Source of the DNA: Terriglobia bacterium
GTDB taxonomy: Bacteria > Acidobacteriota > Terriglobia > Acidiferrales > UBA7541
DNA length: 64,000 nt
Assembly (NCBI GenBank): GCA_020072785.1
Contig: JAIQGG010000001.1
Span: 702,581-766,580, forward strand
Direction: 5' to 3'
The notes beneath the pieces are model-generated. The model was given only the letters and a program-made list of their open reading frames with translations. It was not told where the DNA came from and did no database searches. Positions 3,007 through 63,347 of the stretch are shown here, one piece after another (the stretch's first letter is position 1; each line of letters opens with the position of its first letter). The translations under genes and the position numbers were made by a program.

Positions 3007-3269
3007 ATCGCGCTTCCGGAGTCATTTATAAACATTGTATTTTCAGTGCATTATCCTATGCCAAGCATCGGGAATGCTAGATGCATGATACTAACCACCC
3101 CGGGAACTGCATTTCCTTTCCCATATTGTGCAAATGGAACGTATTTACCATTGACGTTTGTTGCGGGCGTCTGCGACGATGTGCATCCAGAGACGGGAAA
3201 AGATTTACCACTTGAAGCGCAAAGCGCAAAAATCTCTGTTTTCGTGACGGTGAAGCGGTCAAGACTGCA

Positions 3270-4493
3270 ATGACCTCTCTCCCTACATTACCGGTTGAGC
3301 GTGTTTCGCAAGGCCTGCCGTTAGGCCTGGTCACATCGCTTCTGGATACGCTGGAGAAGCCCCTGCTGGTCATCGAGCGGAGCGGGCGCTTCGTGTTGGC
3401 GACCCTGCAGGCACGCCAATGCTTGGAAGCGCGGGGGATTGTGGATCTCGCGAGCAAGGATCTTTTTTCACAAATGCTGGGCATCGAACCCAAGGTAATT
3501 TTCGAGCAGTTCGAAAGCGGTGAGCGGGAAGTGAACCTGCATGTGGTAGGCGGGGGAAAAAAGGCCCGCGCGCGCATCCAGTGGCTGCCGGAGCCGGACT
3601 GGCTGCTCGTGCAGTTCGACCCGCAACCCGAAGCCGCGGAGGTGGAGGAAGGGTCCTCCGTGCTGACCATCCAGGACCTGCTGCAGGAACGCGAAGTGAC
3701 GTACCGCAACCTGCTGGCGGCCTATCTGCGGCTGCAGGATGTAAACCGGCAGAAAACGGTGTTCTTGGGTTCAGCGGCGCACGAATTGAAGACGCCCCTG
3801 GCAGTCATCAAGGGCTACTACGATCTGCTGCTCACCGGCTCTCTGGGGCGGCTGAACGACAAGCAGCGCGAGATTCTCGAGGAATCGAAAGAGAGCTGCG
3901 AGCGGCTGGTGCGGCTGGTTTCCATGTTCCTCAATTATTCCGCGCTGGAAAGCGGCCGGCTGGTGCTGCAGCTGCGGGAGAACGACCTGAAGGATTGTTT
4001 GGAAGAGCTGGGCAAGCGCTGGCAGGAAGCCTTTCAACGCAAGGGCGTGCGCCTGGAAACACAGATCGATTCCGCGCTGCCGGTGTTCCGCTTTGACTAT
4101 CAGAAGGTGCAACAGGCGGCGGGCAACTTGCTGGATAATGCGCTCAAGCACACGCCGCCGGGCGGCTGCGTTACGCTGCTGGCCGCGCCGCATTTCTGGG
4201 AAAGGCGTCTGGCGGCCAACAAGCCGCTTCAGGAGCGCCGCGGCGGGCGCGCGCCGCGGGCCAACAGCGTACAAGTTTCTGTCTCGGATACCGGGCCAGG
4301 GCTGGCCGCCGAATTTCATCAGGAAATATTCGAAGATTTCATGCGCGTGGATCGCAACACGTCGGGCATGGGCCTGGGTCTGGCCATCGCCAAACGGCTG
4401 GTGCAGGCGCATCGGGGAAAGATCTGGGTCGATAGTGAAGCACGGCAGGGCAGTACATTCACCTTTCTCCTGCCCATAGAGCAGGGCCAGTAG
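3270..4493 (+). CDS. Sensor histidine kinase
   Basis: Two-component kinase, 407 aa, that autophosphorylates on histidine and should phosphorylate the regulator encoded immediately downstream. Residues about 20-120 look like a PAS-type sensor region. A short coiled stretch leads to the HisKA dimerisation domain with H-box AHELKTPLAVIKGYYDLL (H171). The ATPase domain shows the N-box NLLDNALKHTPPGG, the G1 box DTGPGL and the G2 box GMGLGLAIAK. No transmembrane helix or signal peptide is visible, so it senses a cytoplasmic signal. It is 21 bases from the response regulator gene and surely co-transcribed. By position near an exosortase locus it is a candidate counterpart of PrsK, but it lacks that family's multi-helix N-terminus. 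Confidence 0.95.
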   Translation: MTSLPTLPVERVSQGLPLGLVTSLLDTLEKPLLVIERSGRFVLATLQARQCLEARGIVDLASKDLFSQMLGIEPKVIFEQFESGEREVNLHVVGGGKKARARIQWLPEPDWLLVQFDPQPEAAEVEEGSSVLTIQDLLQEREVTYRNLLAAYLRLQDVNRQKTVFLGSAAHELKTPLAVIKGYYDLLLTGSLGRLNDKQREILEESKESCERLVRLVSMFLNYSALESGRLVLQLRENDLKDCLEELGKRWQEAFQRKGVRLETQIDSALPVFRFDYQKVQQAAGNLLDNALKHTPPGGCVTLLAAPHFWERRLAANKPLQERRGGRAPRANSVQVSVSDTGPGLAAEFHQEIFEDFMRVDRNTSGMGLGLAIAKRLVQAHRGKIWVDSEARQGSTFTFLLPIEQGQ

Positions 4494-4514: not shown

Positions 4515-5966
4515 ATGAGCATAGCGGAAAGAATTCTGGTGGTGGACGACGAGCCGAGCATCCGCAAATACTTGCAGACGCTGCTCGAGGTGGACGGCTT
4601 CCATGTCGAGACGGTGTGCTCGGGCAGGGAAGCGCTCGAGAAAGTCAGCACGGGCGAACGGCCGGACTTCATCATTCTCGACGTGCTCATGCCCGAGATG
4701 AACGGGATCGAGACGCTCAAGGAACTGATGCAAGTGGACCGTTCCTTGAACGTTATCATGCTCTCCTGCTCCAACGAAGTGGGCACCGTCGTGGACGCGA
4801 TCCGCCTGGGAGCTCACGATTACCTGACCAAGCCCTTCGAAAAGGGCGAACTCGATGCGGCCATGCTCAAGTGCCGCAAGAAGAAGCAGCTGCACGAGGA
4901 GAACCAAGCGCTGCGCGAATATTGCGAACAGCTCACCGAGGACCTCAGCTTCCTGGCCGCCAGCCCGCAGATGGTGCGTATCCGCCAGCAGATCCTGCAG
5001 ATTGCTCCGGTGGACGTGCCAGTGTTCATCTGCGGGGAGAGTGGTGTCGGCAAGGAAGTGGTGGCGCGCATGATCCACCTGCGCTCCAAGCGGCGCAATC
5101 AGGCCTTCGTCAAAGTAAATTGCGCGGCGCTGCCGGGGGAGCTCCTGGAATCGGAACTGTTCGGCTATGAGCAGGGCGCGTTTACCGGAGCGGTGCGCGC
5201 CAAGCCCGGCAAGTTCGAGCTGGCCAACAAGGGCACCATCTTCCTCGACGAAATTGCGGAGATGAGCACGCACCTGCAGGCCAAGCTTCTGCACGTTCTG
5301 CAGGATCACCAGTATTCGCGGCTGGGCGGCCGTCAGGTGGTGGACATGGACGTGCGCGTTCTGGCCGCGACCAATGTGGACGTCCAAGAAGCCATGAAGG
5401 ACGGGCGCTTCCGCGAGGATCTCTATTACCGCCTCAACGTGCTGTCCATCAACGTGCCGCCGTTGCGCGAACGCCAGACGGAAATTCCCCTGCTCTTCCG
5501 CCACTTTCTCCAGAAATACGCCGAGAAATTCGGCAAGACCGCGATCGAGCCGTCGCACTATCTGCTGGAAGCGGCCGCGCGCTATCCGTGGCCGGGCAAT
5601 CTGCGGGAGCTGGAAAATTTCGTGAAACGTTACGTCATTCTCGATGATGAGGAAGGCAGCCTGCGCGAGCTGGTCGAGATGTCCACGGCGCGGCAGCGCA
5701 CCGCGCCGCGCGTGGAAGCACCGCCCCCCCGCGAGCAGGGGCTTAAGGCGCTGGTCCGGGGCTTGAAAGACGAAGCGGAGATGGAAGCGATTGCCAACGC
5801 CCTGGAAAAGACGCGCTGGTGCCGCAAGGATGCGGCGAAAATGCTGGGAATCAGTTACAAGGCATTGCTCTACAAGATGCGGCAATTCAATCTGGACACA
5901 CCGCGGAACCGTCGTGGCGCCGCGACGGAAGAGACACGGCGCGAGCCGGCGATTCGGAACGTCTAG
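4515..5966 (+). CDS. NtrC-family sigma-54 response regulator
   Basis: Transcription activator, 483 aa. The receiver domain (1-125) has acidic D11/D12, phosphoacceptor D56 and K106. The AAA+ domain (about 148-385) has Walker A GESGVGK (174-180), the sigma-54 contact loop GAFTGA (221-226) and Walker B FLDE (243-246). A Fis-type helix-turn-helix closes the protein (about 425-465; ALEKTRWCRKDAAKMLGISY). All elements for phosphorylation-triggered, ATP-driven opening of sigma-54 promoters are intact. It is paired with the upstream kinase. PrsR of the PEP-CTERM system is the closest known role (Zoogloea PrsK/PrsR/RpoN drives PEP-CTERM genes). I infer it controls at least some of the sigma-54 promoters in this window. 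Confidence 0.96.
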   Translation: MSIAERILVVDDEPSIRKYLQTLLEVDGFHVETVCSGREALEKVSTGERPDFIILDVLMPEMNGIETLKELMQVDRSLNVIMLSCSNEVGTVVDAIRLGAHDYLTKPFEKGELDAAMLKCRKKKQLHEENQALREYCEQLTEDLSFLAASPQMVRIRQQILQIAPVDVPVFICGESGVGKEVVARMIHLRSKRRNQAFVKVNCAALPGELLESELFGYEQGAFTGAVRAKPGKFELANKGTIFLDEIAEMSTHLQAKLLHVLQDHQYSRLGGRQVVDMDVRVLAATNVDVQEAMKDGRFREDLYYRLNVLSINVPPLRERQTEIPLLFRHFLQKYAEKFGKTAIEPSHYLLEAAARYPWPGNLRELENFVKRYVILDDEEGSLRELVEMSTARQRTAPRVEAPPPREQGLKALVRGLKDEAEMEAIANALEKTRWCRKDAAKMLGISYKALLYKMRQFNLDTPRNRRGAATEETRREPAIRNV

Positions 5967-6825: not shown

Positions 6826-7188
6826 GTCTGCAGTTCTCTCTTTGCTTCGAGACAACACAAGCAAGGGCTTCCCCTTTCTGCACACTTGCTGTTTGGGGAG
6901 TCCGCTCGATTTGGGGATATCTCAGGCCTTATCACGGGAATGGCCAGGCTGTCCTGGCAAGGGGAAAGAGAAAAAGCTTCCCAAATCAGGAGCAAATATT
7001 TTCTCTGCTGTACCCACAACTCGTTCAATTTTTCCGGGATTAGTACTGGGACCACCTTGTCCATTGCACCTGTAACATATAGATAATGCATTCGTTAGCC
7101 GATTACGGATCTTGTCTTCAGTTTTCGAACATGTCCCTCCGGTTGGCCGAATATGTGCATCTTCTCTGGATCAGGCAGATGCCTGTGT
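6826..7188. other. Intergenic region upstream of the orphan activator
   Basis: No gene recognised. At 7142-7161 TTGGC and GTGCA have GG-N10-GC spacing (GG 7145-7146, GC 7157-7158), nine of thirteen matches to the sigma-54 consensus. If real, the activator gene would be autoregulated and its start must be 7189, not the ATG at 7153 that lies inside the promoter. Confidence 0.4.
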
Positions 7189-8265
7189 ATGCCTACGGAA
7201 CCCACAACTAGAAGCTGCAGGGCGGAGCCGATCAGCCAGATCCCTCCGGATGAGGTCCTTTTTGGCTGTTCGGCGGCGATGGCCGAAGTACGGCAGCGCG
7301 CCGAAAAGATCTGCAATACCAATATCCCCGTGCTGCTCAATGGCGATGGCGGGACGGGCAAGGAAGCGCTGGCGCGGTGGATTCACGCGCGCTCTTCCTA
7401 CCGCAACGGTCAGTTCATCAAGGTCAACTGCGCGGCCATCCCCGGAACGCTGCTCGAGAGCGAGCTTTTCGGTTACGAGCGGGGCGCGTTCACCGGGGCG
7501 CAGGTCAGCAAGTGCGGGCGCGTAGAACTGGCGCATAACGGCACGCTATTTCTGGATGAGATCGCAGACCTGGATCTGAGTCTGCAAGGCAAGCTTCTGC
7601 ATTTTCTCCAGGACGGCAGGTTCACGCGAATCGGCGACAACGAAGAGAGAACCGTAGAGACGCGCATCTTGTGCGCGACGAACAAGGATCTGGAGCGGGA
7701 GATAGCCGCGGGCATATTCCGCGCCGATCTGTTCTACCGCATCAATGGGATGCGGTTGTGGTTGCCGCGGCTGCGCGAGCGCAAGGACGACATTCCGGCG
7801 CTTGCGAATTATCTCCGCGCATTTTACGAGAAACAGTTCGCCAAAGAATCCCCTCCGTTGAGTGCGGAATTTCTCGCCTATCTGCGGGAGTTGGATTGGC
7901 CGGGGAACGTGCGGGAATTGTCCAACGGAATGGCACGCTATGTCTTGATCGGTCCCGAAGAGGTGATTGCCGAAGAGCCGCCGCGCAAGCGCAGTTTGCG
8001 GATGTCCGGCGCGTCTTCCGAGGCTGCCCCTGTTCCGCTGAAGCACCTTGCGAGGGAAGCGACCCGGGAGATGGAGCGCAATATCATCCTGGAAACGCTG
8101 CAAGCCAACCGCTGGAATCGCCGGAAGACGGCGGAGGCGCTGCAAATCAGTTACCGCGCACTCATCTACAAGATCCGCGATGCCGGGTTGCTGGCGCGGA
8201 GCACGGAAGTCCTGGCGGACGTACCCGAAAAAAAATCTCCCGCTTCGCAGTCCTCCCGCGACTAA
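7189..8265 (+). CDS. Orphan sigma-54-dependent activator without receiver domain
   Basis: 358 aa. A short N-terminus leads directly into an AAA+ domain with Walker A GDGGTGKE (52-59), GAFTGA (99-104) and Walker B LFLDE (120-124). A Fis-type helix-turn-helix follows near the C-terminus (NRWNRRKTAEALQISYRAL). The sigma-54 contact loop is intact, so it should be competent for activation. With no receiver or other sensor it would resemble PspF, controlled by expression level or by a partner protein. The ATG at 7153 would add twelve residues of unlikely, Cys-rich composition, so I prefer 7189. Its target is most likely in the local polysaccharide/exosortase genes. A degenerate relative is encoded at 61188. 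Confidence 0.93.
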   Translation: MPTEPTTRSCRAEPISQIPPDEVLFGCSAAMAEVRQRAEKICNTNIPVLLNGDGGTGKEALARWIHARSSYRNGQFIKVNCAAIPGTLLESELFGYERGAFTGAQVSKCGRVELAHNGTLFLDEIADLDLSLQGKLLHFLQDGRFTRIGDNEERTVETRILCATNKDLEREIAAGIFRADLFYRINGMRLWLPRLRERKDDIPALANYLRAFYEKQFAKESPPLSAEFLAYLRELDWPGNVRELSNGMARYVLIGPEEVIAEEPPRKRSLRMSGASSEAAPVPLKHLAREATREMERNIILETLQANRWNRRKTAEALQISYRALIYKIRDAGLLARSTEVLADVPEKKSPASQSSRD

Positions 8266-14677: not shown

Positions 14678-15181
14678 ATGCCTCAGGAAGAGTGCTACGC
14701 AAACTTTTCCTCTTCAAAATACTGAGAGATGCAATTTTGCACCCTGAAACCAAGGAATTGCCAGCTCGTTCTCAAAACAGACGTATATAACAGATAATAA
14801 AGGCATTAAATGCTGGTCACCGGACTTTCTGCCATGATTCAGGGAGGCTTTGGAATTCTAGATACCGATCAAATGCCAGGAAAAGGCAAATTCAATGGAC
14901 AATGTGGATAGAATAGTTCCACTTCATGGCCGGATTATAGCTGCAGGATAGGCAAGAATTTGACTATGCCGATCACGTTTGCGCCGATTACTTCATGATA
15001 ATAAAAGACATGGATTGATTTTCAGAGTCTAGGCAAGCTTTGCTTTCTTGGCAAGGCCCGTGCTTTAGTCTCTCTCGTAGCGACCTGTGTCTCGGTAGTA
15101 GAATGTCCAGAGGCACTGGAAGCGGGAATTCATCCCGCTCTTTGAAGAGCGGCGTTCGGGAAGGGCAGGAGCGAGGTAACG
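14678..15181. other. Divergent intergenic region, prsT-like and wzz-like genes
   Basis: AT-rich 504-base region between divergent operons with no coding frame. It holds the sigma-54 candidate at 15047. A small dyad GTGGA-N9-TCCAC (14904-14922) lies about 130 bases upstream of it, a usual activator-site distance. On the minus strand a perfect TTGCA -12 element (14731) has a poor -24 partner, so I do not call it a promoter. Confidence 0.5.
15047..15066 (+). promoter_or_regulatory. Sigma-54 promoter candidate for the wzz/tyrosine-kinase operon
   Basis: TTGGCAAG (seven of eight consensus bases) and GTGCT (four of five) have exact GG-N10-GC spacing, GG at 15050-15051 and GC at 15062-15063. Predicted start near 15075 leaves a leader of about 105 bases to the ATG at 15182. 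Confidence 0.55.
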
Positions 15182-16693
15182 ATGGTCCGGAACGGCGAAA
15201 TCAGCATTGGCGATGCGAAGAGGGTCCTCCGGGGCTACTGGTGGATTTTGCCTATCACCTCCGTGGGCTGCGCGGTTCTTGCGCTGGCGGCCGCGCTGAT
15301 GCTGCCGAAGCGCTATACCTCGGGGACGATGGTCCTGGTCGAACAACCGACAGTGTCGTCAGATTATGTGAAACCCGTGGTTACCGAAGACCTCAATCAT
15401 CGTCTGGCATCGATGAAGGAACAGATTCTCAGCCGCACACGTCTAGAGCCGATTATCGAAAAGTTCGATCTGTATGCCGTGGACCGCGACCGTGTGCACA
15501 TGGACGATCTTGTGGAGCGCTTGCGCTCAGCGGTGACGATTCCCCCGATGGAGCCTATGCCAGGAACGCAGAACCGCCAATTGCCGGGTTTCTACGTCAA
15601 CGTCACCTTTGATAATCCCCAGATCGCGCAACAGATTTGCACGGAAATCACCTCGATGTTTCTGGAGCAGAACTCCCGGGAGCGCGAACAGCAGGCTTCG
15701 CGGACCACTTCCTTCCTCAGCCGGCAATTGGACGAAGCCAAGGCCAAGCTGGACGCACAGGATGCCAAGCTGGCCCAGTTCAAGCGGCAATATCTGGGCT
15801 CGCTTCCTGACGAAGAACAGACCAATCTCAGCCTACTCCTGGGAATGAACTCCCAACTCGAAGCCAACACCCAGGCGTTGAGCCGGGCACAACAGGACAA
15901 GGTCTTCAATGAGTCCTTGCTTGGTCAGCAGGAAGCTATCTGGAAGGCCGCGCAGTCCGGACAGAGTCCAGAGACGACCGAACAGCAGCTCAACGCGCTG
16001 CAGGAACAGCTGACCGCTCTGCAGGCACGCTACACGCCGGAGCATCCGGATGTCATCAAGATCCAAAGCCAGATCGATGAATTGAAGAAGCGCATGGCCC
16101 AGACTCCCAAGACGAAAGATGTGGAGAATAAGGCCGCGCAGCTAGCCCCCAGCGAGCCGCCCCAGCTGCAGCAACTCCGCGCCAAACGGCGGCAGGATGA
16201 ATTGAACATCGCCGATCTCACCCGCCGGCAGGGACAGATCCAGGAGCAGATCCGCATCCTGCAGGGACGCGTGCAGGCCAGCCCGATGGTGGAGCAGCAG
16301 TATAAGGAATTGACGCGGAACTATCAGAGCGCACTGGATTTCTACAATGATCTTCTGAAAAAGCGTGAACAATCCGCAATGGCCACGGATCTCGAACACC
16401 AGCAGGAGAGCGAGCAATTTCGCGTGTACGATCCGCCCAGCCTGCCGGATAAACCTTCCTTTCCGAAGAAGACCTATTTTGCGGGTGGCGGGTTGGGGGC
16501 GGGGCTAGCCCTGGGGTTGGGCATCCTGTTCGTAATCGCGGTGAGCGACAAGGCGATGTATACCGGGCAGGATGTGGAGCTCTGCTTGAAGGTTCCGGTT
16601 CTCGCGCTGGTTCCGAGATTGGAGACAGCTTCTGCCCCGGGAGGCATAACCGGAACGGTCGGAAGTACCTATCCGGCGGGCAAGAAGATCTGA
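15182..16693 (+). CDS. Wzz/GumC-type polysaccharide chain length determinant
   Basis: Inner-membrane co-polymerase that sets polymer length and couples to export, 503 aa. There are two transmembrane segments, about residues 22-40 (WWILPITSVGCAVLALAAAL) and 418-440 (glycine-rich, PKKTYFAGGGLGAGLALGLG). A long periplasmic coiled-coil (about 170-400) lies between them. The proline-rich motif before the second segment (PPSLPDKPSFP) is typical of the Wzz family. It matches the exosortase-associated chain-length protein group (TIGR03007). A GGAG-type site precedes the ATG. The tyrosine kinase follows 36 bases downstream as a separate protein, the arrangement of Wzc split into two genes. Confidence 0.93.
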   Translation: MVRNGEISIGDAKRVLRGYWWILPITSVGCAVLALAAALMLPKRYTSGTMVLVEQPTVSSDYVKPVVTEDLNHRLASMKEQILSRTRLEPIIEKFDLYAVDRDRVHMDDLVERLRSAVTIPPMEPMPGTQNRQLPGFYVNVTFDNPQIAQQICTEITSMFLEQNSREREQQASRTTSFLSRQLDEAKAKLDAQDAKLAQFKRQYLGSLPDEEQTNLSLLLGMNSQLEANTQALSRAQQDKVFNESLLGQQEAIWKAAQSGQSPETTEQQLNALQEQLTALQARYTPEHPDVIKIQSQIDELKKRMAQTPKTKDVENKAAQLAPSEPPQLQQLRAKRRQDELNIADLTRRQGQIQEQIRILQGRVQASPMVEQQYKELTRNYQSALDFYNDLLKKREQSAMATDLEHQQESEQFRVYDPPSLPDKPSFPKKTYFAGGGLGAGLALGLGILFVIAVSDKAMYTGQDVELCLKVPVLALVPRLETASAPGGITGTVGSTYPAGKKI

Positions 16694-16729: not shown

Positions 16730-17638
16730 ATGAGCCGGATTCACGAAGCACTGAAGAAGGCAGCACAAGAAAGATCGTCGCAGTTGGCGACCGGCGTGGT
16801 GCCGGATCTTTCCGGGCTTGGGGCCGATATACAGCGGCCGGTGGTTCCCCCGGCCGCGGTGTCGGAGGCGGCGGCCGCGGATCTCCGCGCGGCCGCGGAT
16901 TTGCCGTTCCTGCGTTTCGAGGAACTCACTAGGCGTTGTGCTCGCCCCACGTGGCACTTCGATCCGCGGATGAGCGTTTTTCATGGCGCGACCGTTGAAA
17001 AGATCGCTGCAGAGCATTTCCGCACGCTGCGCTCCCGCCTCTATCAGATTGCAGGTATTCAGCCGCTGCGCCGGGTCCTGGTAACGAGCAGCGTGGCCGG
17101 GGAAGGAAAGACATTTGTGGCTGCGAATCTTGCGCAGTCCATTGTGCGGCAGCCTGAACGGCGAGTACTGCTGATCGATGCTGATTTGCGGGTACCCACT
17201 CTGCATCAGGCGTTAGGTGCGCCCAGCACTCCGGGATTAACCGAATTTCTCCGCGGCGAAGCGGATGAATACGCGGTGATCCAGAAAGGCACGGAGGGGA
17301 ATCTCTGCTTCATTCCCGGTGGCAGCCTGGTGTCCAACCCCAGTGAATTGCTTCTGAGCGATCGCATGGCGCAACTGCTGGACCTGGTAACCCCTGTTTT
17401 TGACTGGATCATTCTCGATTCGCCGCCGACATTGCCCGTACACGATGCCAGCATGCTGGCTGATCGTTGCGATGGCGTGCTGTTTGTGGTGGGCGCGGGG
17501 AGCACGGATTACGAGGTAGCGGAAAAGGCCATCGCGGAATTTCGCGAAAAGAACCTGCTGGGCGCGATCCTCAACCGCACCTCCGATAGAGATTCCTACG
17601 GCGGGTATTACGGCTATAGGCGAAGAGAGAACAAATAG
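16730..17638 (+). CDS. Bacterial tyrosine autokinase of the exopolysaccharide system
   Basis: Cytoplasmic BY-kinase (CpsD/Wzc-C type), 302 aa. The N-terminus MSRIHEALKKA is typical of the exosortase-associated group. An EHFRTLRSRL segment precedes Walker A SSVAGEGKT (120-128), Walker A' VLLIDADLR and Walker B WIILDSPP. The C-terminus carries a tyrosine cluster (Y290, Y293, Y294, Y296 in DSYGGYYGYRRR), the expected autophosphorylation sites, shorter than in E. coli Wzc. It should act with the preceding chain-length protein, cycling phosphorylation to control polymerisation. Confidence 0.95.
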   Translation: MSRIHEALKKAAQERSSQLATGVVPDLSGLGADIQRPVVPPAAVSEAAAADLRAAADLPFLRFEELTRRCARPTWHFDPRMSVFHGATVEKIAAEHFRTLRSRLYQIAGIQPLRRVLVTSSVAGEGKTFVAANLAQSIVRQPERRVLLIDADLRVPTLHQALGAPSTPGLTEFLRGEADEYAVIQKGTEGNLCFIPGGSLVSNPSELLLSDRMAQLLDLVTPVFDWIILDSPPTLPVHDASMLADRCDGVLFVVGAGSTDYEVAEKAIAEFREKNLLGAILNRTSDRDSYGGYYGYRRRENK

Positions 17639-17806: not shown

Positions 17807-18706
17807 TTAAGCTGACGGAATTTCCGCCGTTTTCCTCCTGGGTTTCTCTCCGCGCTGCAGTAGCCACAGCACCGGAACAAGAAGGAGCAGGCCCAGCAGG
17901 AAAAACACGACGCCGCCTTCGCGGTGCAGATTGCCATAGAGGAATCCCGGATTCACGTAGTTGGCGAGAAGGGTCAGAGTCACGATTCGAACGCCATTTT
18001 TCACGATCATCACGAAGACACCGCAGAGGACAAAAACGAGCTGCTTCCAGAAGGGGCGAAGAAGGAAATGGCCCACGAGCACCGCCAGGATGAGAAGAGC
18101 CATGCTCGAGCGGATACCGCTGCACTCGCTGGCTACCTCGATGTTCACCCGCGAAAGATGAAAGACAAATCCCTCGCGCAGGACGGGCACGCCCGTCAGG
18201 TCAAAGAGGGTCCCCGCAATCTCGGCCGATCCTTTCTGCAGGAAAAAAACGGTTCGTGCGAGCAAGGCATCCGGCAAGGGCACGGATAGAAACAGAAAGA
18301 GCATCGCAAAGCGGTTAGCTTGGAGCGCTTCTCTTCCGAAGACGAGCGCAAATCCCGCGATCCAGAAGAAGACGAGCGCGACGGCATAACTCGCCAGGGA
18401 GTTGCCCAGACTCCATTGCGCAGCGGAGTGCAGCGTCCAGCTATAGACGGTGGCGGCCACAGCGAAGAGACCCGCCGTAACTCCCCAATCGCAGGACTTC
18501 CGCTCCAAGATCTGGCGGCGCTTCTGAAAGATCAGCCATGCGCTGATGAAGGGAATCAGCAGGATGTGCGAGGCGTTGTCGTTGGCGAGCGCATGACGGA
18601 CGAGCAGCATGCCAGGCCGCCAAAAAATCGCAAGCGACAGGACTACCCACAAACCGTAAAACAGCCAGCGCTGGTTGCTTCCTTGTGGTGTATCCGTCAA
18701 TTCCAC
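17807..18706 (-). CDS. Exosortase (EpsH/Xrt family cysteine protease-transpeptidase)
   Basis: Multi-spanning inner-membrane enzyme, 299 aa, that recognises PEP-CTERM tails. About eight hydrophobic segments. The catalytic triad is visible: C195 in ASECSGIRSS, R240 in VKNGVRIV and H261 in LYGNLHREGG. No EpsI domain is fused at the C-terminus, which ends in a short basic tail. The start is GTG at 18704-18706 with AGGGG six bases upstream; an overlapping ATG is out of frame. I do not assign an Xrt subtype. It lies convergent to the tyrosine kinase and downstream of a HYDIN lipoprotein on the same strand. The only PEP-CTERM substrate seen is 44 kb away at 62653. Confidence 0.95.
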   Translation of the reverse strand: MELTDTPQGSNQRWLFYGLWVVLSLAIFWRPGMLLVRHALANDNASHILLIPFISAWLIFQKRRQILERKSCDWGVTAGLFAVAATVYSWTLHSAAQWSLGNSLASYAVALVFFWIAGFALVFGREALQANRFAMLFLFLSVPLPDALLARTVFFLQKGSAEIAGTLFDLTGVPVLREGFVFHLSRVNIEVASECSGIRSSMALLILAVLVGHFLLRPFWKQLVFVLCGVFVMIVKNGVRIVTLTLLANYVNPGFLYGNLHREGGVVFFLLGLLLLVPVLWLLQRGEKPRRKTAEIPSA

Positions 18707-50341: not shown

Positions 50342-50986
50342 ATGCGCCTTTCTCTTTTCGTCCGGAAATTCCAGAGAAACGTGGAAGACTATGGCTGGCC
50401 GGTTACTCTCAGAAAGAGTCTGGGTTACCTCTTCCAGACATTTTATGCCCATCAGGTTTACCGCATCTATCGAATCGACCTCACGGAGCCGCGCCCTTCT
50501 GCGCTGTGCGATGAACAGGGCCTGTCTTTTAGGATTCTCGATCCGGACGATCATCAGGCCATCTCGCAGATTGAGAAGGTTCACGAATGGCTTCAGGGCG
50601 GATTGAAAGAAAGCATCCGGGCCGGCGCCTTGTGCCTGGTGGCCCTGCAGGGCGAGAAGGTGGCGGGGTTTAACTTGATTGGGTTCGGCGAAGTGTTTAT
50701 GCCACTGGTCAATAAGAAGCGGACCTTTCGCAAGGGTGATGCCTGGTCCGAACAGATTGCGGTGATGAAAGACTTCCGGCAATTGGGTCTCGGTTCTCAG
50801 CTCCGCTACAGGATTTTTGAGGAGCTTGGCAGCCGGGGGGTCAAGCGCCTTTATGGCGGCGCTCTCACTTCCAACGTCGGCTCGCTCAAATTGGCAAGAA
50901 AAGTGGGCTTCCGGGAAATCATCGATATTCATTACTTCCGAATACTGGGACGTGACATTTGGCGGTATAAGAAGGTGCAGCAGTGA
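50342..50986 (+). CDS. GNAT N-acetyltransferase
   Basis: 214 aa. The acetyl-CoA binding region reads WSEQIAVMKDFRQLGLGSQLRYRIFEEL (V-x-x-x-x-R-x-x-G-x-G), followed by GALTSNVGSLKLARKVGF, the usual last GNAT strand and helix. The first 70 residues form a separate N-terminal region of unknown role. It overlaps the next gene by four bases (GTGA), so the two are translated together. Substrate unknown. Confidence 0.87.
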   Translation: MRLSLFVRKFQRNVEDYGWPVTLRKSLGYLFQTFYAHQVYRIYRIDLTEPRPSALCDEQGLSFRILDPDDHQAISQIEKVHEWLQGGLKESIRAGALCLVALQGEKVAGFNLIGFGEVFMPLVNKKRTFRKGDAWSEQIAVMKDFRQLGLGSQLRYRIFEELGSRGVKRLYGGALTSNVGSLKLARKVGFREIIDIHYFRILGRDIWRYKKVQQ

Positions 50987-52431
50987 GCTTTCTGGAGCAC
51001 TTCAATGATTTCGTTGTCGGAAACATTACCTTTCCTTTGACGAACTACACGCTGAACAGAAGGGGGGTCCTGCGTCATTTCCACGAATTGAAAAAGTCCG
51101 AACGCTACCCGCAAGAACAATTGCAGGAGATGCAGCTCAGAAAGTTTAGAGAGCTGGTAAGGTATGCGGGTAAGCAGTGCCCATTCTACGCTGCCCGGTT
51201 CAAGGCAGCCGGGCTCCTGCCGGACGATATCAGGACACTGGAAGACGTCAAGAAGATCCCTCCCCTGACCCGCAAAGATGTGATGGATCACTGCCGCGAG
51301 CTTCTGGACACTCGCTACTGGCCCTCCATCCCCTTCGCGGATCGATCCACGCGAGGCCCCGGCCAGCCGGCGTCGTTTGCAAGGTTTCGCAAGCACAAGC
51401 TTGTGAAGAATACTTCGTCGGGTTCCACCGGTGCCCCAGTCACCTTTTACGAGGATGGAGCGATCACGGGCCGGAATTGGGCTTTGGAACTGAGATTGAA
51501 GGATTGGTTTGGCCATAAGCCCGGCGTGCGGGAGGCACGACTGGTCAGGATTTCAACGGATTACCTTCCAAACAGCAAGACCCTGTCGGCGAGAAAGCGC
51601 CTTTGGCACCAGTTGATTCTACCCGGGGTGAATCTGACGAATCCGGATTACGCGCTCTCCGTCGAGAAAATCAAGGAATTTCGGCCCAAGGTTCTCTGGG
51701 GATTCACTTCCGCGTTGACCGGGTTGGCCGATTACATTCGGCGGTCGAACCAAGACATGGCCTCTTGGCGCCCGGAACTTGCCATATCCTGGGCCGCTCC
51801 CCTCTACGAGCATGAAAAGGCTCTTCTCTCCAGCGTCTTTCATTGCGCGCAGACGAATATCTATGGCAGCCGCGAGGTGGGGCACATCGCTTTTTTCTGC
51901 CCCGAGGGCAGCTTGCACATCAACCAGGAAGATCTCCTCGTCGAGAGTCAACGGGATAACGGGGAAAGCGCCCCTGAACACCCCGGAGAAATTATCGTTA
52001 CTACTCTCGATAGATCCCCCATGCCTTTCATCCGCTATCGGATGGGCGATATCGGCGAGGTGGCCCCCGGGAATTGCGCCTGTGGCCGGTCCTTGCTGGT
52101 CATCAAGAACTTCCTGGGACGAACCGGCGAAGTCTTTTACACCAGGGACGGCCGCATGATTTCCCCGAATTTCTGGATGCGCACGTTCATGGTTGGACGC
52201 CAAAGCCAGACGATCGAAAGATGGCAGGTCGTTTATCGCAAGGATCGCAGCATTCATTTGCGAATCGTGCCGCGTCCGAATTTCACCCCGGAGACAGAGG
52301 CCGATATCCGGCGCCATCTGGAAAAAAACCTTTCGACAGCAACACCCGTCGATTTTGAATATGTTTCAAAGATCGAAAAGCATTCCTCCGGGAAAGAGAT
52401 GCTGATTATTAACGAAAGCAATCAACCTTAG
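50983..52431 (+). CDS. CapK/phenylacetate-CoA ligase-like adenylating enzyme
   Basis: 482 aa adenylate-forming enzyme. The ATP loop is TSSGSTGAPVTFYED, and IYGSREVGHIAFFCPEG plus PGEIIVTTLDRSPMPFIRYRMGDIG are the other signature motifs. The family includes capsule protein CapK and PaaK. It activates a carboxylic acid, presumably for transfer to the glycan by neighbouring GNAT/FemAB proteins. It lacks a phosphopantetheine carrier domain, so CoA or direct transfer is implied. GTG start overlapping the preceding stop. Confidence 0.9.
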   Translation: MSFLEHFNDFVVGNITFPLTNYTLNRRGVLRHFHELKKSERYPQEQLQEMQLRKFRELVRYAGKQCPFYAARFKAAGLLPDDIRTLEDVKKIPPLTRKDVMDHCRELLDTRYWPSIPFADRSTRGPGQPASFARFRKHKLVKNTSSGSTGAPVTFYEDGAITGRNWALELRLKDWFGHKPGVREARLVRISTDYLPNSKTLSARKRLWHQLILPGVNLTNPDYALSVEKIKEFRPKVLWGFTSALTGLADYIRRSNQDMASWRPELAISWAAPLYEHEKALLSSVFHCAQTNIYGSREVGHIAFFCPEGSLHINQEDLLVESQRDNGESAPEHPGEIIVTTLDRSPMPFIRYRMGDIGEVAPGNCACGRSLLVIKNFLGRTGEVFYTRDGRMISPNFWMRTFMVGRQSQTIERWQVVYRKDRSIHLRIVPRPNFTPETEADIRRHLEKNLSTATPVDFEYVSKIEKHSSGKEMLIINESNQP

Positions 52432-55626: not shown

Positions 55627-55740
55627 TTGACCAACTTATGTCTAGCCCCTGCCTTCAGGAGCTCCTCGGAACTCTGTGTTTATGGGAGAGGGCAGGGAAG
55701 GGCCGGGCCAAATTGGTCAATGCTTTTCCACTTTTTCCAA
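55627..55740 (+). terminator. Nested inverted repeats followed by T-rich sequence
   Basis: TTGACCAA (55627-55634) pairs with TTGGTCAA (55713-55720). Nested inside, CCCTGCC (55647-55653) pairs with GGCAGGG (55691-55697), and the palindrome AGGAGCTCCT (55657-55666) lies in the loop. TGCTTTTCCACTTTTTCC follows. It starts right at the amidase stop codon, so a large branched terminator is the simplest reading. Confidence 0.5.
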
Positions 55741-55978
55741 AGGTGATTCCCTCTTGCGGGTCTAAACGCAGTGTTGTATCTAAGTTATTTAAATACAGGT
55801 AGATACAGAAGCTTCCAGCTTCTGGACCGGATTCATTGTGGCGAGACAATTGCTCCCTTCCGGGCTGTTAACGTTCGCGCTGGCCTCTTCTGAAATTTTG
55901 CTTCTAGGCCATCTGTTCGCGAATAGACTATTTTGATTCCGTAAGATTCGTGGTATTCGCTAGTCATAGGAGACACCC
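55741..55978. other. Upstream region of rfbA
   Basis: No gene. It holds a perfect hairpin CAGAAGC-TTCCA-GCTTCTG (55806-55824) just ahead of the sigma-54 candidate at 55837. The hairpin ends 16 bases before the -24 GG, too close for a normal activator site. A GGAG site at about 55969 serves rfbA. Confidence 0.5.
55837..55856 (+). promoter_or_regulatory. Sigma-54 promoter candidate for rfbAB
   Basis: TGGC and a perfect TTGCT with exact GG-N10-GC spacing (GG 55840-55841, GC 55852-55853), ten of thirteen consensus bases. The leader to the rfbA ATG would be about 115 bases. Confidence 0.5.
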
Positions 55979-58021: not shown

Positions 58022-58993
58022 TTATTCTTTTTCGCGCGTGGTTGCCGGTGCCGGGTGGGAAGAAGCGATGCGGAACTTCGAGAGCACTTCGCCAAGGTTT
58101 TGCAGGAATTCTTCGGAATTGTAAATGTCGTTGGCGTGGTCGGCGCGCGTTCCACCCGCCGGCGCGATCGGCGCAACCTCGTCAAGCTGGAAGTCGCGCG
58201 CGACGTCGTCCACGATCTTTGCTTCGATCGTTCGCTGCTGGTCGACGTACGCACTGATCAGCGCGTGCTCGCAGAGCAGATTCACTACGCGTGGAATTCC
58301 CATGGAATAGTGGTGGATGGTTTCAATCGCCTGCGGGCTGAAGATGGCTTCGCCATCGGCCGCGGCCCCCGCGATGCGCAGTCGCTCTTGGATGTAGTTG
58401 CCCGTCTCTTCTTTCGTAAGCGGGGCGGTCTTGCAGCGCAGCGTGATGCGCTGCCGCAATTGCCGCAATTGCGGCAGTTTCAGCCGCTCTTCCAGCTCCG
58501 GCTGCCCGGACAGTACGATCTGCAAAAGCTTTTCCGTCGAGGTCTCCAGGTTGGTCAGAAGGCGAATTTCTTCCAGCACCGGATGCGTCAGGTTTTGCGC
58601 TTCGTCGATGATCAGAACTACCGTCTCGCCCGCGCGGTAGCGTTCCAGCAGCCAATGGTTCAGTTTCATCAGCTGCTGGCTCTTGGACTGCGATTCACAG
58701 GGGATATCGAATTCCGCAAGGATGAAATCGAGCAGCTGGTCCGTGTTCATCTGCGAATTGAACAGGAACGCCGTACGCGAGCGCTGTTGGTGCAGCCAGT
58801 CGAGCAGCCGGTTCACCAGCGTCGTCTTGCCCGTGCCGACCTCGCCGGTAAGGGTAATGAACCCTTTGCGCGTCTCAATGCCGTACATCAGCCCCGTCAG
58901 CGCTTCTTCTATCTCCTTCGTGAGGAAGAGGAAACGCGGATCCGGGTTGACGTTGAAAGGGTTTTCTTTTAGCTTGAAAAAAGTCTTGTACAT
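58022..58993 (-). CDS. ExeA-type AAA ATPase (exosortase-system associated)
   Basis: 323 aa. MYKTFFKLKENPFNVNPDPRFLFLT is the characteristic start of the ExeA/GspA-like and PEP-CTERM-associated ATPases (TIGR03015). Walker A GEVGTGKTT, Walker B VVLIIDEAQNL and the RQRITLRCKTAPLT sensor region are intact. Works in the cytoplasm, probably energising or assembling the export apparatus encoded just upstream on this strand. Some 120 bases separate it from the outer-membrane protein gene. Confidence 0.9.
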   Translation of the reverse strand: MYKTFFKLKENPFNVNPDPRFLFLTKEIEEALTGLMYGIETRKGFITLTGEVGTGKTTLVNRLLDWLHQQRSRTAFLFNSQMNTDQLLDFILAEFDIPCESQSKSQQLMKLNHWLLERYRAGETVVLIIDEAQNLTHPVLEEIRLLTNLETSTEKLLQIVLSGQPELEERLKLPQLRQLRQRITLRCKTAPLTKEETGNYIQERLRIAGAAADGEAIFSPQAIETIHHYSMGIPRVVNLLCEHALISAYVDQQRTIEAKIVDDVARDFQLDEVAPIAPAGGTRADHANDIYNSEEFLQNLGEVLSKFRIASSHPAPATTREKE

Positions 58994-59114: not shown

Positions 59115-60533
59115 CTAGCGGATCACGAACGGCCGCGTGTGCCACTGAAATCCCAGCGAGATCTGGTGCTGCGTGAAGCTGGTGCTGCAATTTCCCGCTG
59201 CGCAGACAGGCAATTGCGAAACCTGGATCCGGGCTGTATATCCGAAGGACAGGCTGGCATTCCGGCCCAGGGGCCGGCTAAGCCCGGCGCCAGCGAACCA
59301 CGTGTCATAACCCTGCCCATTGGCGGTTACCAGAGCGTGGTTGCGCGCATATCCGAAGTTGCCTTGCATCTGCCACTCCCTGCTGATCTGGCGGTTGGCA
59401 TCCAGGCCCACGCGATCCGTGCTCGACCCGATCAGCGCGCCGCCCCCGTTGCTCACGCCGTGGTCATAACTCAGCGACAGGCCGCCGCGCTTGAAACCGT
59501 AGGAGAGGGAAGCCCCTCCCGACACGGAAAGCGTGTCGCTGATATTGCCGATCGGAATGCGGAAGGTGGTCAACTCCGGACCGCCGGACACTTGCAGTGC
59601 CAGGCGCCCCGTAATCTTGCGGCCGTAGACGAAGTGGAACGAGTGATCGCCAAGGGCCTGCGGAAAACCCGCGAAGTGATAGGCGCTGAACCGGTACACT
59701 CCACCGAGCTGGTCCTCACTCGTCAGCGCGTAGTCATAACCCACATTCCCGTTCACATTGTCGCTCTCGATATTCCCGGCTTCCACAAAACGCAGAATCC
59801 CATAGGAACCTGCAACCGTGAGCGTTCCGCGCCGGCTGAGCGCATAGCTGGCCTGCGTCGCAAAGGCGTTGCTGTAGCGCGGGCCCGCCGATGTCAGGAT
59901 GCTTTGGTTGGGCACATAGCTATTCTGTAACCCGGGCAGGGAGCCGCCGAGAGAGCCTCCGATTCCCGGAATGCTGAGATTCGCGGCTCCCCCAAAACCG
60001 AACTGCGCTTCCGGCAAATAGGAGAATTGGTCCAGGAACAGCACTTGCCATCTTTGCCGCTGGAATACCTGCACCAATCCAAGCTGGTGAAAATAGCCGT
60101 TGCCCTGGGCGCTGTTCGTGGAAAAAAGTCCGCCGCCCGAATAGTTCATCGACAACTGGGCATGGCTCCAGGCTTCCAATAGGCTGAGGTTCCCGGCCAC
60201 ATAACTATTTGCAGTCCAGTCCCCGGAGCTGGCTTGATTGAGCGCAAAATTCTGCGTCGTATTCCCGTACTGCAAGCCAGGCACCCAGTAGCTGTGCCGG
60301 AACTGCGCAGAGCCCAGCGTTGGAGTTTGCACTCCGGTCAACGGGCGATTGTCCGGCTGCAGTTCGTTGGCGGGGGTCTGCTCGGCATCGTCCTGGCCCA
60401 TGCCAATCAGCAGCGGGGCCTTCGCGGCGGGTTTCGGCTGCGTCTCGTCTTCCTGCGCGCGCGCGCGCGGCGCCCCCAGAGCCAGTGCCGCGAGCACCGC
60501 CAATCCTGACAGCAATGCTTTCGAATGTTTCAT
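59115..60533 (-). CDS. Outer-membrane beta-barrel protein of the export block
   Basis: 472 aa. A signal peptide (about 1-27, cleavage after ARA) is followed by a Pro/Ala-rich linker and then alternating strands with aromatic girdles (RHSYWVPGLQYGNTTQNF, TWFAGAGLSRPLG, SLSFGYTARIQVS), ending in FQWHTRPFVIR. No family is recognised with certainty; exosortase loci usually carry an outer-membrane protein of this size (TIGR03016 type). The ATG at 60531-60533 has GAGGG six bases upstream, better than the GTG two codons before. The gene is ten bases downstream of the Wza-like gene. Possibly a polymer porin. Confidence 0.8.
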   Translation of the reverse strand: MKHSKALLSGLAVLAALALGAPRARAQEDETQPKPAAKAPLLIGMGQDDAEQTPANELQPDNRPLTGVQTPTLGSAQFRHSYWVPGLQYGNTTQNFALNQASSGDWTANSYVAGNLSLLEAWSHAQLSMNYSGGGLFSTNSAQGNGYFHQLGLVQVFQRQRWQVLFLDQFSYLPEAQFGFGGAANLSIPGIGGSLGGSLPGLQNSYVPNQSILTSAGPRYSNAFATQASYALSRRGTLTVAGSYGILRFVEAGNIESDNVNGNVGYDYALTSEDQLGGVYRFSAYHFAGFPQALGDHSFHFVYGRKITGRLALQVSGGPELTTFRIPIGNISDTLSVSGGASLSYGFKRGGLSLSYDHGVSNGGGALIGSSTDRVGLDANRQISREWQMQGNFGYARNHALVTANGQGYDTWFAGAGLSRPLGRNASLSFGYTARIQVSQLPVCAAGNCSTSFTQHQISLGFQWHTRPFVIR

Positions 60534-60542
60534 GGCCACCCT

Positions 60543-61172
60543 CTACGGCACGACGATTATGTCGCCGGACTGCAGCATGATGTTCTGCTCCGGTTTGCGG
60601 CCCTTCACCACTTCCTTGTAGTTGAAGGGGATCTTCTCCTGTTTCCCGTTCACCGTGCGCAGCACATAGATATCTTTGATCCTGGCAAATTGCGTGAAGC
60701 CGCCGGCGCTCGACAGCGCCTGCAATACGGTCATATCTGGCAACAGTGGTAACGCCCCCGACCGCAATACTTCCCCGTTGATGTACACCCGCCGGCTGTT
60801 GATCTCCGATACGCCCACAGTCACCTGCGGGTTGGTGATGAACTTTTTCAGCCCCTCGCTGATCACGCTGGCAAGCTGCGTCGGCGTCAGCCCTGCGGCC
60901 TGCACGTCATTCAGCAGCGGCAAAGAAATCTTTCCGTCCGGCCGCACCGGAACGGTGCGCGAAATCTCCGGCTCCTTCCACACGTCGATGCGCAGTACGT
61001 CTTGCGGGCCAATTTTGTAAAGGGCCTCAGTCCCGGTCGCCGCTTCGGCGCTGGCCGTTTTTCCGCCCGCTTCTGTCTTCGTTGCCGCGGCCTCCGGCTT
61101 GTCCGGTTTTTGCGCCTGCCCAGCCGCGAAGATCAGCCACAGCCCCATGAGAAGACTGCTTGTCAGACTCAT
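60543..61172 (-). CDS. Polysaccharide export protein (Wza-like)
   Basis: 209 aa. The poly_export domain (YKIGPQDVLRIDVWKEPEISRTVPVRPDGKISLPLLNDVQAAGLTPTQLA) precedes an SLBB domain (RRVYINGEVLRSGALPLLPDMTVLQALSSAGGF). A signal peptide is present but there is no lipobox cysteine (AAGQAQ), so unlike E. coli Wza it may not be acylated. It lacks the C-terminal outer-membrane helix, as in the shorter exosortase-associated group (TIGR03027). It should form the periplasmic part of the export channel, with the neighbouring barrel as outer-membrane partner. Confidence 0.92.
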   Translation of the reverse strand: MSLTSSLLMGLWLIFAAGQAQKPDKPEAAATKTEAGGKTASAEAATGTEALYKIGPQDVLRIDVWKEPEISRTVPVRPDGKISLPLLNDVQAAGLTPTQLASVISEGLKKFITNPQVTVGVSEINSRRVYINGEVLRSGALPLLPDMTVLQALSSAGGFTQFARIKDIYVLRTVNGKQEKIPFNYKEVVKGRKPEQNIMLQSGDIIVVP

Positions 61173-61187: not shown

Positions 61188-62141
61188 TTACTCGTCGCTC
61201 GTTGTGCCCTGCACGCCGATCAGCTTGATTTTGTAGAGCAGCGATTTGTAGCTGATCTGCAGTTCCTGCGCTGCTCGCTTGCGGTTCCAGTGCGTGCGCT
61301 CCAGCGCCTGCAGAATCAACTCCCGCTCCGCCCGCCGCGAAGCCTCCCGCGAGGCCGCTTTCAAGGAAAACAGGGGCGCCCCGTCGTTCGTTTTGCCGGC
61401 CTTCCGGGGAGCTGTGCGCAGATCGTCCAGCGCCACGCCGGCATCTCCGATGGCCACGATCTTCTTCGCCACATTTTCGATCTCGCGGATGTTCCCCGGC
61501 CAATCGTGGGCGGTCAGTAATTCCAGTGCCTCCGGGCCCAGGACTGGCGGGTCGCGCTTCAATTCGCCGGAGTATTTAGTCAGAAAATACTGTACCAGCG
61601 CCGGAATATCCTCTTTCCGCTCGCGCACCGGCGGCAGCCGCAGGTGCACCCCATTGATCCGGAAATACAACTCCCTCCGAAAACGCCCCTTCTCGATCTC
61701 CTCTTCCAGATTCCGCGAGGTGGTGGAAATCACGCGTGCCGTCACCTCGTTCTCGCCACTCTTCTCCGCGCCATCGGGGAGCAGAGAAAGCAGCAGGCGC
61801 TGGCAGGCCGGATCCAGTTCCTCCACGCCGTCCAGGAGCAGTGTCCCGCCCTCCGGAGCGCCATTCACGAGCTGTGTTCCTTCCTGAATTTGCCGCAGCA
61901 AACGCCCCGGCTCCAGAGTCGCGCAGTTCAGTTTTCTCAGCGGCCTTTGCCCAGCGCCAGAGAGCCGGTGAATCAGTCGGGCATAGACCTCTTTGCCCGT
62001 GCCGCTCTCTCCTTGCAGCAGAACGGGGATTTCCGTACGCGCAATCACGGCAACCACGGCATTCAGGGCTTGCATGGCGGCACTCTGGCCGTAAACCATA
62101 TCGGCCAGCGGTTCGAGAATGTGGCTCGTTGGTGTGCTCAT
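61188..62141 (-). CDS. Degenerate sigma-54 activator homologue lacking GAFTGA
   Basis: 317 aa AAA+ protein with a Fis-type helix-turn-helix (HWNRKRAAQELQISYKSLLYK). Walker A is intact (GESGTGKE, 44-51) and the RFRRELYFRIN arginine-finger helix and WPGNIREIEN are kept. The segment that should carry GAFTGA (about 82-97: LRQIQEGTQLVNGAPEG) is about eleven residues shorter and has no trace of it. Walker B ends LLLDG instead of LFLDE. It should bind DNA and ATP but not open sigma-54 promoters. I choose the ATG at 62141; GTG 62201 adds 20 residues. Upstream of the Wza-like, barrel and ATPase genes on the same strand, so probably regulates this block. Confidence 0.88.
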   Translation of the reverse strand: MSTPTSHILEPLADMVYGQSAAMQALNAVVAVIARTEIPVLLQGESGTGKEVYARLIHRLSGAGQRPLRKLNCATLEPGRLLRQIQEGTQLVNGAPEGGTLLLDGVEELDPACQRLLLSLLPDGAEKSGENEVTARVISTTSRNLEEEIEKGRFRRELYFRINGVHLRLPPVRERKEDIPALVQYFLTKYSGELKRDPPVLGPEALELLTAHDWPGNIREIENVAKKIVAIGDAGVALDDLRTAPRKAGKTNDGAPLFSLKAASREASRRAERELILQALERTHWNRKRAAQELQISYKSLLYKIKLIGVQGTTSDE

Positions 62142-62570
62142 GCGTCTCTGGCTAGCATCTTCCCCCGGTCCTTGGACCAGCTCAGCCGATGCTCTGGACA
62201 CGCTACCGGCAAAGGTAGGGGAGCAAGTTCGCTACCAGAGAACAAAGATATGGATACTCTGCAATCTGCCACTAACTAATTGCAAATAAATAAGTTAACA
62301 TTTCCTGATCCTCTCCCAGTCAATTTCCGGATGTTACTGGAGTCCCCATTTTCTTCCACCAAGTGGCAAACTATTTACCCTACCCATCGCTGCTACGCTG
62401 CCTTTCTCGATATCAGATTCTCGCTATCCAAATATCTTGCAGAAAATAAATGGCTTAGGCAAATTCTTAAGAACATGCCACTGGTCATTCTTGCAATTGA
62501 CTGAGGGACCACACAAGACGTTCTATGCCTGACAGACCCTTGAAGGGAACAGGTCGGAGGAATTGGAGCC
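62142..62570. other. AT-rich region between the degenerate activator and PEP-CTERM terminator
   Basis: About 430 bases, AT-rich, without a credible coding frame. No sigma-54 site with correct spacing was found in either direction, although fragments of TTGCA and GTGGCA occur. The promoter of the export operon must lie here or in the activator gene. Confidence 0.5.
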
Positions 62571-62652: not shown

Positions 62653-63276
62653 CTAGAGACGCAAACGCGCAAGACCTGCCAGGGCCAGCAACCCAGCGCC
62701 AAGCAGGGTCAACGAAGCGGGCTCAGGAACCGCGGTCGTCTGGGAGACGATGAGGCCATCGAAACTCCCGTTGGCGTTCGGACCGTACTCCGCCCCAATG
62801 TGAACGCTGCCATCGGCAGCGATCAATGAGGGGTCGATTGCATCGAAGGTCCAAGTCCAAGTGTAGACCCCATTCTGCGCGATAAGGAGTGAGGTCAAGG
62901 GTGACGCCGAAGCGCAGACAAAAGCTCCGGAATTAACACCGCAAGTCCCGCCAGAACTCAAACTGCCAGTAGTGGCTGTCCAACCGGTCGAAGGAAAGGC
63001 CGTCAGAGACAACCCAGTGATGTTTCCGCTGGATGTGAAGCCGAGGTCCACGGCCGTGATGTAATCGTTGGATGACGTCGGCACCCCGTTGATTGTAATG
63101 GTCAGGCTCGCCGAGGTGGTCGTTATGTCAAAGGCATACGTCGCACCCGGACAGTTCCCGCCACCGCCACAATCCGTCAAGATCAAGGTACCTACTGTAT
63201 CCGCCATGGCCGGCGCTGTGCAAAAGAGGACCATAATAGTGAGGCCCAGTACTGCCAAGACCTTCCGAATCATCAT
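62653..63276 (-). CDS. PEP-CTERM sorting-signal protein (exosortase substrate)
   Basis: 207 aa secreted protein. Residues 1-25 are a signal peptide (cleavage after AMA). The mature domain is rich in Ser/Thr/Gly with C-x-x-G-G-G-G-N-C, and no catalytic motif is seen. The tail is a textbook PEP-CTERM signal: VPEPASLTLLGAGLLALAGLARLRL minus its first residues, that is a PEP motif, a hydrophobic helix and a basic end. A GGGGGAT site precedes two ATGs (63271-63276). The exosortase at 17807 is the evident enzyme. The promoter is a sigma-54 candidate with a dyad further upstream. Likely a surface or matrix protein. Confidence 0.93.
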   Translation of the reverse strand: MMIRKVLAVLGLTIMVLFCTAPAMADTVGTLILTDCGGGGNCPGATYAFDITTTSASLTITINGVPTSSNDYITAVDLGFTSSGNITGLSLTAFPSTGWTATTGSLSSGGTCGVNSGAFVCASASPLTSLLIAQNGVYTWTWTFDAIDPSLIAADGSVHIGAEYGPNANGSFDGLIVSQTTAVPEPASLTLLGAGLLALAGLARLRL

Positions 63277-63328: not shown

Positions 63329-63347
63329 CTGCAATCAGTGGGCCATC
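63329..63347 (-). promoter_or_regulatory. Sigma-54 promoter candidate for the PEP-CTERM gene
   Basis: Minus strand: TGGCCC and a perfect TTGCA with exact GG-N10-GC spacing (CC 63343-63344, GC 63331-63332), ten of thirteen consensus bases. The predicted start lies about 43 bases before the ATG. Sigma-54 with PrsK/PrsR is the known control mode for PEP-CTERM genes in Zoogloea. Confidence 0.6.

Follow-up and report, generated by a model that had tools for sequence, protein, structure and literature searches.

At the head of an XrtA/PEP-CTERM polysaccharide-export operon in a soil acidobacterium we found EBP_A, a homologue of the enhancer-binding proteins (EBPs) that has lost the GAFTGA loop, a loss that sequence comparison across its relatives identifies as a family trait and not one broken gene. 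EBP_A probably tunes fully working sister regulators rather than switching genes on alone, and to the reading that it is an enhancer-anchored, non-catalytic modulator working with or against competent paralogues we give a probability of roughly one half. GAFTGA-less EBPs are already known; what is new is the EBP_A clade and its wiring, which join known traits in a sigma-54-blind EBP inside a sigma-54 circuit. Our literature search found no work joining Acidobacteria, sigma54, exopolysaccharide and enhancer binding protein.

The export operon and its candidate regulators

The window, the whole 64,000-nucleotide stretch of DNA that was analysed, contains the operon headed by EBP_A, a separate XrtA chain-length gene, and two further EBPs that bear GAFTGA:

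58022 to 58993, minus strand: XrtA/PEP-CTERM system-associated ATPase (TIGR03015), fourth gene of the operon
59115 to 60539, minus strand: conserved probable outer-membrane protein with no Pfam or NCBIfam match, third gene
60543 to 61172, minus strand: XrtA-type exopolysaccharide export protein (Poly_export/SLBB), second gene
61188 to 62141, minus strand: EBP_A, GAFTGA-less EBP homologue, 317 aa from the ATG at 62141, in a frame open to a GTG at 62201
3270 to 4493, plus strand: histidine kinase gene, immediately upstream of RR_C
4515 to 5966, plus strand: RR_C, PrsR-like response regulator of the NtrC family, complete in all its motifs and a candidate activator or partner
7153 to 8265, plus strand: EBP_B, receiver-less GAFTGA-bearing EBP, candidate activator or partner
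15182 to 16693, plus strand: XrtA polysaccharide chain-length determinant, TIGR03007-like, followed by a tyrosine autokinase (16730-17638)

An exosortase maps to about 17858-18643. EBP_A heads the export operon here, as the original prediction had said, and in nearly every other locus, where the gene order is EBP_A, export protein, outer-membrane-type protein, (chain-length determinant), XrtA ATPase, (tyrosine kinase). In some genomes without EBP_A (loci L201, L202, L213, L240 and L217) a gene of the EBP_B type with GAFTGA stands first in the XrtA export operon, which suggests that a local EBP at the operon head may be the older arrangement.

The ATG at 62141 is a more plausible start for EBP_A than the GTG at 62201 (which would give an ORF of 61188-62201, minus strand), because a predicted -24/-12 element at 62222-62238 puts the transcription start near 62211. 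In the 317-residue form the AAA domain begins at about residue 16 and is preceded by some 15 unconserved residues. Pfam matches to Sigma54_activat (PF00158; 102 bits, compared with 215 bits for the paralogue at 7153), AAA_lid_14 (PF25601) and Fis HTH_8 (PF02954) supply the AAA+ domain and Fis-type helix-turn-helix (HTH) of the bacterial EBPs. The N-terminal receiver or signal domain expected of a GAFTGA-less EBP regulator is missing, and with no receiver domain and a score of 163.7 bits against the PrsR model (TIGR02915; cut-off 502.6), EBP_A is not PrsR. The segments that matter for its function are these:

61989 to 62012, minus strand: Walker A, GESGTGKE, residues 44-51, Lys in 51/51 orthologues
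61845 to 61898, minus strand: shortened L1 segment without GAFTGA, residues 82-99, 18 aa compared with 29 in EBP_B and RR_C
61827 to 61844, minus strand: Walker B, TLLLDG, with Glu changed to Gly, residues 100-105
61734 to 61778, minus strand: L2 segment without the canonical RLGG, residues 122-136
61647 to 61688, minus strand: arginine-finger helix, GRFRRELYFRINGV, residues 152-165
61218 to 61295, minus strand: Fis-type HTH, THWNRKRAAQELQISYKSLLYKIKLI, residues 283-308, near-invariant in orthologues

Walker A, the arginine fingers (FRRELYFR), sensor II (WPGNIRE) and the HTH are intact, in agreement with what had been claimed for Walker A, the finger helix and the DNA-binding domain. The sigma-54 contact segment had been put at about eleven residues short, and is exactly that when set against the canonical EBPs of the locus (18 and 29 residues). 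Walker B does read LLLDG, and a Ser replaces the sensor I Asn, leaving the protein without the Walker B Asp-Glu pair and sensor I Asn looked for in a hydrolysing enzyme; the sensor I change, like the loss of the second sigma-54 loop (RLGG), had escaped the original prediction. An AlphaFold model built with 12 sequences, and of lower confidence in the HTH part, has an EBP-type AAA+ domain with a short loop instead of L1 (mean pLDDT 76), and its nearest solved structures are FlrC, NtrC1, Brucella NtrX, FleQ and VpsR, with Z of 22-23. The GAFTGA loop is thus lost from an AAA domain that is otherwise EBP-like, as in other GAFTGA-less EBPs, and because EBP_A lacks the defining features of both a sigma-54 activator and PrsR, it is classed here as a GAFTGA-less EBP homologue.

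Losses and retentions across the orthologues

A search of 89 genomes of the family, combined with reading of the loci, yielded 51 distinct EBP_A orthologues, and a class-wide search with reading of 20 further loci in other families added about 20 members, so that the relatives examined with a sigma-54-blind regulator number about 70 beside the soil acidobacterium. GAFTGA is absent from 51/51 family orthologues and from all of the further members, which head the same export operon. The L1 segment is 10-24 residues long in the 51 orthologues, compared with 29 in every EBP_B and in all RR_C but one that is truncated, and the orthologues form one clade (support 100) apart from EBP_B and RR_C. Between close pairs dN/dS is 0.06-0.24, and the gene is therefore under purifying selection. 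Given 51 of 51 orthologues and these ratios, the loss of GAFTGA is not due to chance, and a pseudogene or single-genome artefact is ruled out; the original prediction had reserved the single-pseudogene explanation for the case that orthologues carried a normal GAFTGA, and none does.

At 80 signature columns common to EBP_B and RR_C at 85% or more, retention in EBP_A is about 0% in L1 (GAFTGA) and L2 (RLGG), with both RLGG columns at 0% in the family. L1 and L2 are the loops that contact sigma-54 in known structures (review PMC7175178), and both sigma-54-contacting loops are therefore gone from EBP_A. Retention at the P-loop Gly and Lys, arginine fingers, sensor II and lid is 90-100%, and 99% in the HTH; among the orthologues the Walker A Lys is found in 51/51, the two arginine fingers in 49/51 and 50/51, and the sensor II Arg in 51/51. 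Residues of the hydrolysis machinery are more variable, with Glu at the Walker B position in 29 of 51, Gly in 15 and other residues in 7, the switch Asn kept in 10/51 and the sensor I Asn in 4/51. The Walker B Glu loss that had been offered as a hallmark therefore holds for the protein in the window but is lineage-specific and not a family trait. The alignments thus show a relaxed hydrolysis apparatus beside preserved elements for binding ATP, contacting other subunits and binding DNA.

Nine members of one other family have gone further, having replaced the Walker B Asp by E, S, Q or R, and they keep the first arginine finger in 9/9 and the second in 8/9. Arginine fingers act on the ATP of the neighbouring subunit, and their survival after loss of the Walker B Asp is explained most simply if they are donated to, and serve, another subunit that does the catalysis. 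The fingers may instead serve only a non-hydrolysing, ATP-binding homo-oligomer, or folding.

A predicted sigma-54 promoter and upstream dyad

Upstream of EBP_A, and at two other places in the window, we found candidate regulatory elements:

62222 to 62238, minus strand: predicted -24/-12 sigma-54 promoter, CTGGTAGCGAACTTGCT, position conserved in orthologous loci
62354 to 62369, minus strand: predicted enhancer/operator dyad, TTGCCACTTGGTGGAA, 131 nt upstream of the -24 element
14916 to 14932, plus strand: second enhancer-like dyad, 132 nt upstream of a -24/-12 element
15048 to 15064, plus strand: that element, a predicted -24/-12 promoter, TTGGCAAGGCCCGTGCT, before the XrtA chain-length gene
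3118 to 3134, plus strand: dyad of related sequence, ahead of the operon for the histidine kinase and RR_C

A -24/-12 element lies at a fixed place upstream of EBP_A in 39/44 loci, where shuffled sequence would give 0.09 per region, and the genome encodes rpoN (sigma-54); EBP_A itself is probably made from a sigma-54 promoter. The dyad (consensus TTSCCAC-N3-GTGGWA, 16 nt) lies 120-137 nt upstream of the -24/-12 element across loci. The copy at 62354-62369 is the only perfect core match in the genome and outscores every other site in the window (20.5 bits) even under a profile trained without it. Dyads of at least 8 bits occur upstream of 44/59 EBP_A genes, compared with 1/59 in the reversed control. 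The combination of dyad and -24/-12 element recurs ahead of the XrtA chain-length gene.

Five export-gene-headed operons without EBP_A (L204, L205, L206, L208 and L218) have no convincing dyad and no plausible sigma-54 site, the nearest thing being one weak 8.1-bit match in L204, and a sixth (L209) keeps a degenerate half dyad. This contrast is supportive, not decisive, for a link between dyad and EBP_A: the detector was trained on EBP_A-headed operons, which biases the comparison, and the operons compared are few and not all of the same ancestry, some perhaps descending from different operons. The link could instead reflect loss of gene and promoter as a block. By the same profile, several members of the family with decayed Walker B have no dyad. 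As a genome-wide regulon motif the dyad was rejected, since the perfect core occurs once and matches with two mismatches number 85, compared with 37 in the reversed control (about twofold).

Other sites in the window were also recorded. A block at 3117-3150 (TTTCC-N7-GTGCAAATGGAACG-N2-TTTACCA), which contains the related dyad, is strongly conserved upstream of the histidine kinase-RR_C operon in most loci. A sigma-54-like site, ATGGCCCACTGATTGCA (63330-63346, minus strand), lies about 54 nt upstream of a PEP-CTERM gene (62653-63276), where a search for the dyad found none despite this -24/-12-like site. Two of the strongest -24/-12-like matches in the window, CTGGCACGAAATCTGCA (2989-3005, minus strand) and CTGGCGCGTGTATTGCT (2778-2794, minus strand), have no obvious gene directly downstream. 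Further dyad-like sites at 55725-55741 and 51078-51094 (12.9 and 15.4 bits), one in the gap before an rfbA-like gene at 55979 and the other inside an ORF at 50983-52431, are to be judged knowing that chance alone should produce about 1.4 sites of at least 12 bits across the window.

Competent paralogues and a shared recognition helix

The recognition helix ISY[KR]xL[LI]YK is found only in EBP_A, EBP_B and RR_C among the EBPs of the genome that were examined, and the EBP_A HTH is 60% identical to that of RR_C and 52% to that of EBP_B. Mean pairwise identity in the HTH compared with the AAA core is 87% and 52% in EBP_A, and 70% and 58% in EBP_B. This uneven conservation, together with the association of the dyad with the EBP_A gene, suggests that EBP_A itself binds the dyad, probably alongside a competent EBP.

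As to the identity of that EBP, the activator at 7153 had been named as a possible partner, a choice that is now less clear. A 99%-complete genome with EBP_A (G028) contains a PrsR-like response regulator and no detected EBP_B orthologue, and EBP_B as an obligate partner is accordingly not supported. RR_C is the better candidate, because most genomes have it, its sequence is strongly conserved and none of its motifs is missing. An apparent loss of RR_C in two genomes (G048 and G049) was not used, as a diverged EBP frame of 492 aa adjoins EBP_B there.

EBP_B has itself changed the Walker B Glu to Gly in 10/38 genes (L136, L138, L142, L148, L155, L157, L159, L163, L165 and L237) with GAFTGA intact, as in a protein with GPKGSGKE and LFLDGIADLD. 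In several genomes both EBP_A and EBP_B are without this Glu, making RR_C the sole motif-complete EBP of the locus. Strict complementarity between the Walker B losses of EBP_A and EBP_B was looked for and was not found.

Proposed mechanism and alternatives

We propose that EBP_A is a paralogue that cannot work with sigma-54 and is devoted to the XrtA polysaccharide-export operon. The operon would be transcribed from its sigma-54 promoter by a GAFTGA-bearing EBP, most likely RR_C and/or EBP_B, and EBP_A would use its Fis HTH to bind the dyad that lies 131 nt ahead of its own promoter, acting there inside, or competing with, a ring of the competent paralogue. To such a ring it would donate DNA binding, ATP binding and arginine fingers, with no sigma-54 contact and little or no hydrolysis, and in this way it would feed back on its own operon. 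Sequence shows which parts were lost and kept, that the orthologues form a clade, how the operon is made up, and that a promoter and dyad accompany the gene; the identity of the dyad-binding protein, the formation of mixed rings and the sign of the feedback are inferred. More tentatively, the proteins of this class-wide family might be "blind" ring subunits derived from EBPs. Each would be an obligate partner in a hetero-oligomer, anchoring or gating a catalytic EBP at a single dedicated enhancer, and its gene would lie under the promoter it controls. What points this way is that both sigma-54-contact loops have been shed, and the Walker B acid lost in one lineage, yet fingers are kept that would serve a neighbour's ATP.

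A sigma-54-independent regulator, an antagonist at the same sites and a hetero-oligomer partner had all been put forward originally and remain the right rivals, the shared HTH supporting the last two. As a homomeric autorepressor, EBP_A would sit alone on the dyad and block RR_C or EBP_B from the enhancer, giving negative feedback with no mixed rings. The HTH type common to the three proteins, the complete loss of the sigma-54 contact loops and the position of EBP_A as first gene of the operon it could repress all suit this account, which we regard as possible but not probable. An activator's dyad should outlast the loss of a repressor, but operons without EBP_A are also without the dyad, one of them keeping half, and arginine fingers kept after Walker B decay have no obvious use in a simple DNA-bound repressor.

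It is unlikely that EBP_A instead activates or represses sigma-70 promoters, independently of other EBPs and with ATP binding as a structural switch, in the manner of Rhodobacter and Caulobacter NtrC or of VpsR. Known GAFTGA-less EBPs do act at such promoters, namely the NtrC proteins of R. capsulatus and Caulobacter, Caulobacter NtrX and V. cholerae VpsR, and in R. capsulatus NtrC the ATP must be bound but need not be hydrolysed (PMC10274813). The Walker A Lys of EBP_A is kept in 51/51. A conserved dyad 131 nt upstream of a sigma-54 element, however, has the geometry of an enhancer and not the position of a sigma-70 activator site; some members have wholly lost the Walker B acid, and EBP_A has no N-terminal signal domain. 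The fast-evolving AAA core (52% mean identity) and drifting Walker motifs are what a duplicate in decay, still able to bind DNA but lacking any specific role, might display, but the gene has kept its place as the first of this operon in several families of the class, its dN/dS is 0.06-0.24 and its HTH and arginine fingers are near-invariant, which makes that explanation very improbable.

Relation to known systems

The modulator reading has partial parallels in several systems. The GAFTGA-less NtrC and NtrX proteins share with EBP_A the AAA+ EBP fold and a shortened L1 without GAFTGA, and Brucella NtrX (5m7n) is among its top structure matches (Z 23.2). Those proteins have a receiver domain, whereas EBP_A has none, and Brucella NtrX keeps in the alignment an ELFG stretch and an L2-like RVGG that EBP_A has lost. 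Unlike those proteins, EBP_A heads a sigma-54 operon for polysaccharide export. The original prediction had named TyrR as a further precedent among family members lacking GAFTGA. VpsR of Vibrio cholerae has an N-terminal receiver-like domain. It is a polysaccharide regulator that, like EBP_A, is EBP-derived and without GAFTGA (PMC10274813; structure match Z 22.1), but it binds c-di-GMP according to its PDB title, whereas EBP_A has only the short unconserved stretch before its AAA domain.

EBP hetero-oligomers have been reported for HrpR/HrpS, VnfA paralogues and FleQ/FleT (PMC9542535). The co-dependent pairs HrpR/HrpS and VnfA1/VnfA3 are, like the proteins considered here, paralogous EBPs, and they act at the same promoters (PMC9542535); the paralogues of EBP_A lie in the same locus (4515-5966 and 7153-8265). 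Those pairs are not described in PMC9542535 as lacking GAFTGA, whereas EBP_A is without any sigma-54-contact loop. PEP-CTERM genes use sigma-54, PrsR and an upstream motif (PMC1569441, PMC9850573), and PrsK-PrsR regulation (Haft 2006; RpoN-dependent pepA in Aquincola) resembles the present case in joining sigma-54, an NtrC-family regulator and an upstream motif at XrtA/PEP-CTERM genes. It differs in that EBP_A is not PrsR and that the promoter here would drive the export operon, not only a PEP-CTERM gene.

Significance

GAFTGA-less EBPs are usually treated as sigma-70 regulators. EBP_A is fixed in its clade, is itself probably transcribed by sigma-54, and has a DNA-binding helix common only to the competent EBPs of its locus, and it is therefore a natural system for asking whether a subunit blind to sigma-54 can gate, from inside, an AAA+ ring bound at an enhancer, in a dominant-negative or co-activating way. 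For the XrtA export operon in Acidobacteriota, the analysis provides a candidate enhancer, promoter and regulator set, with predictions that can be tested at the bench.
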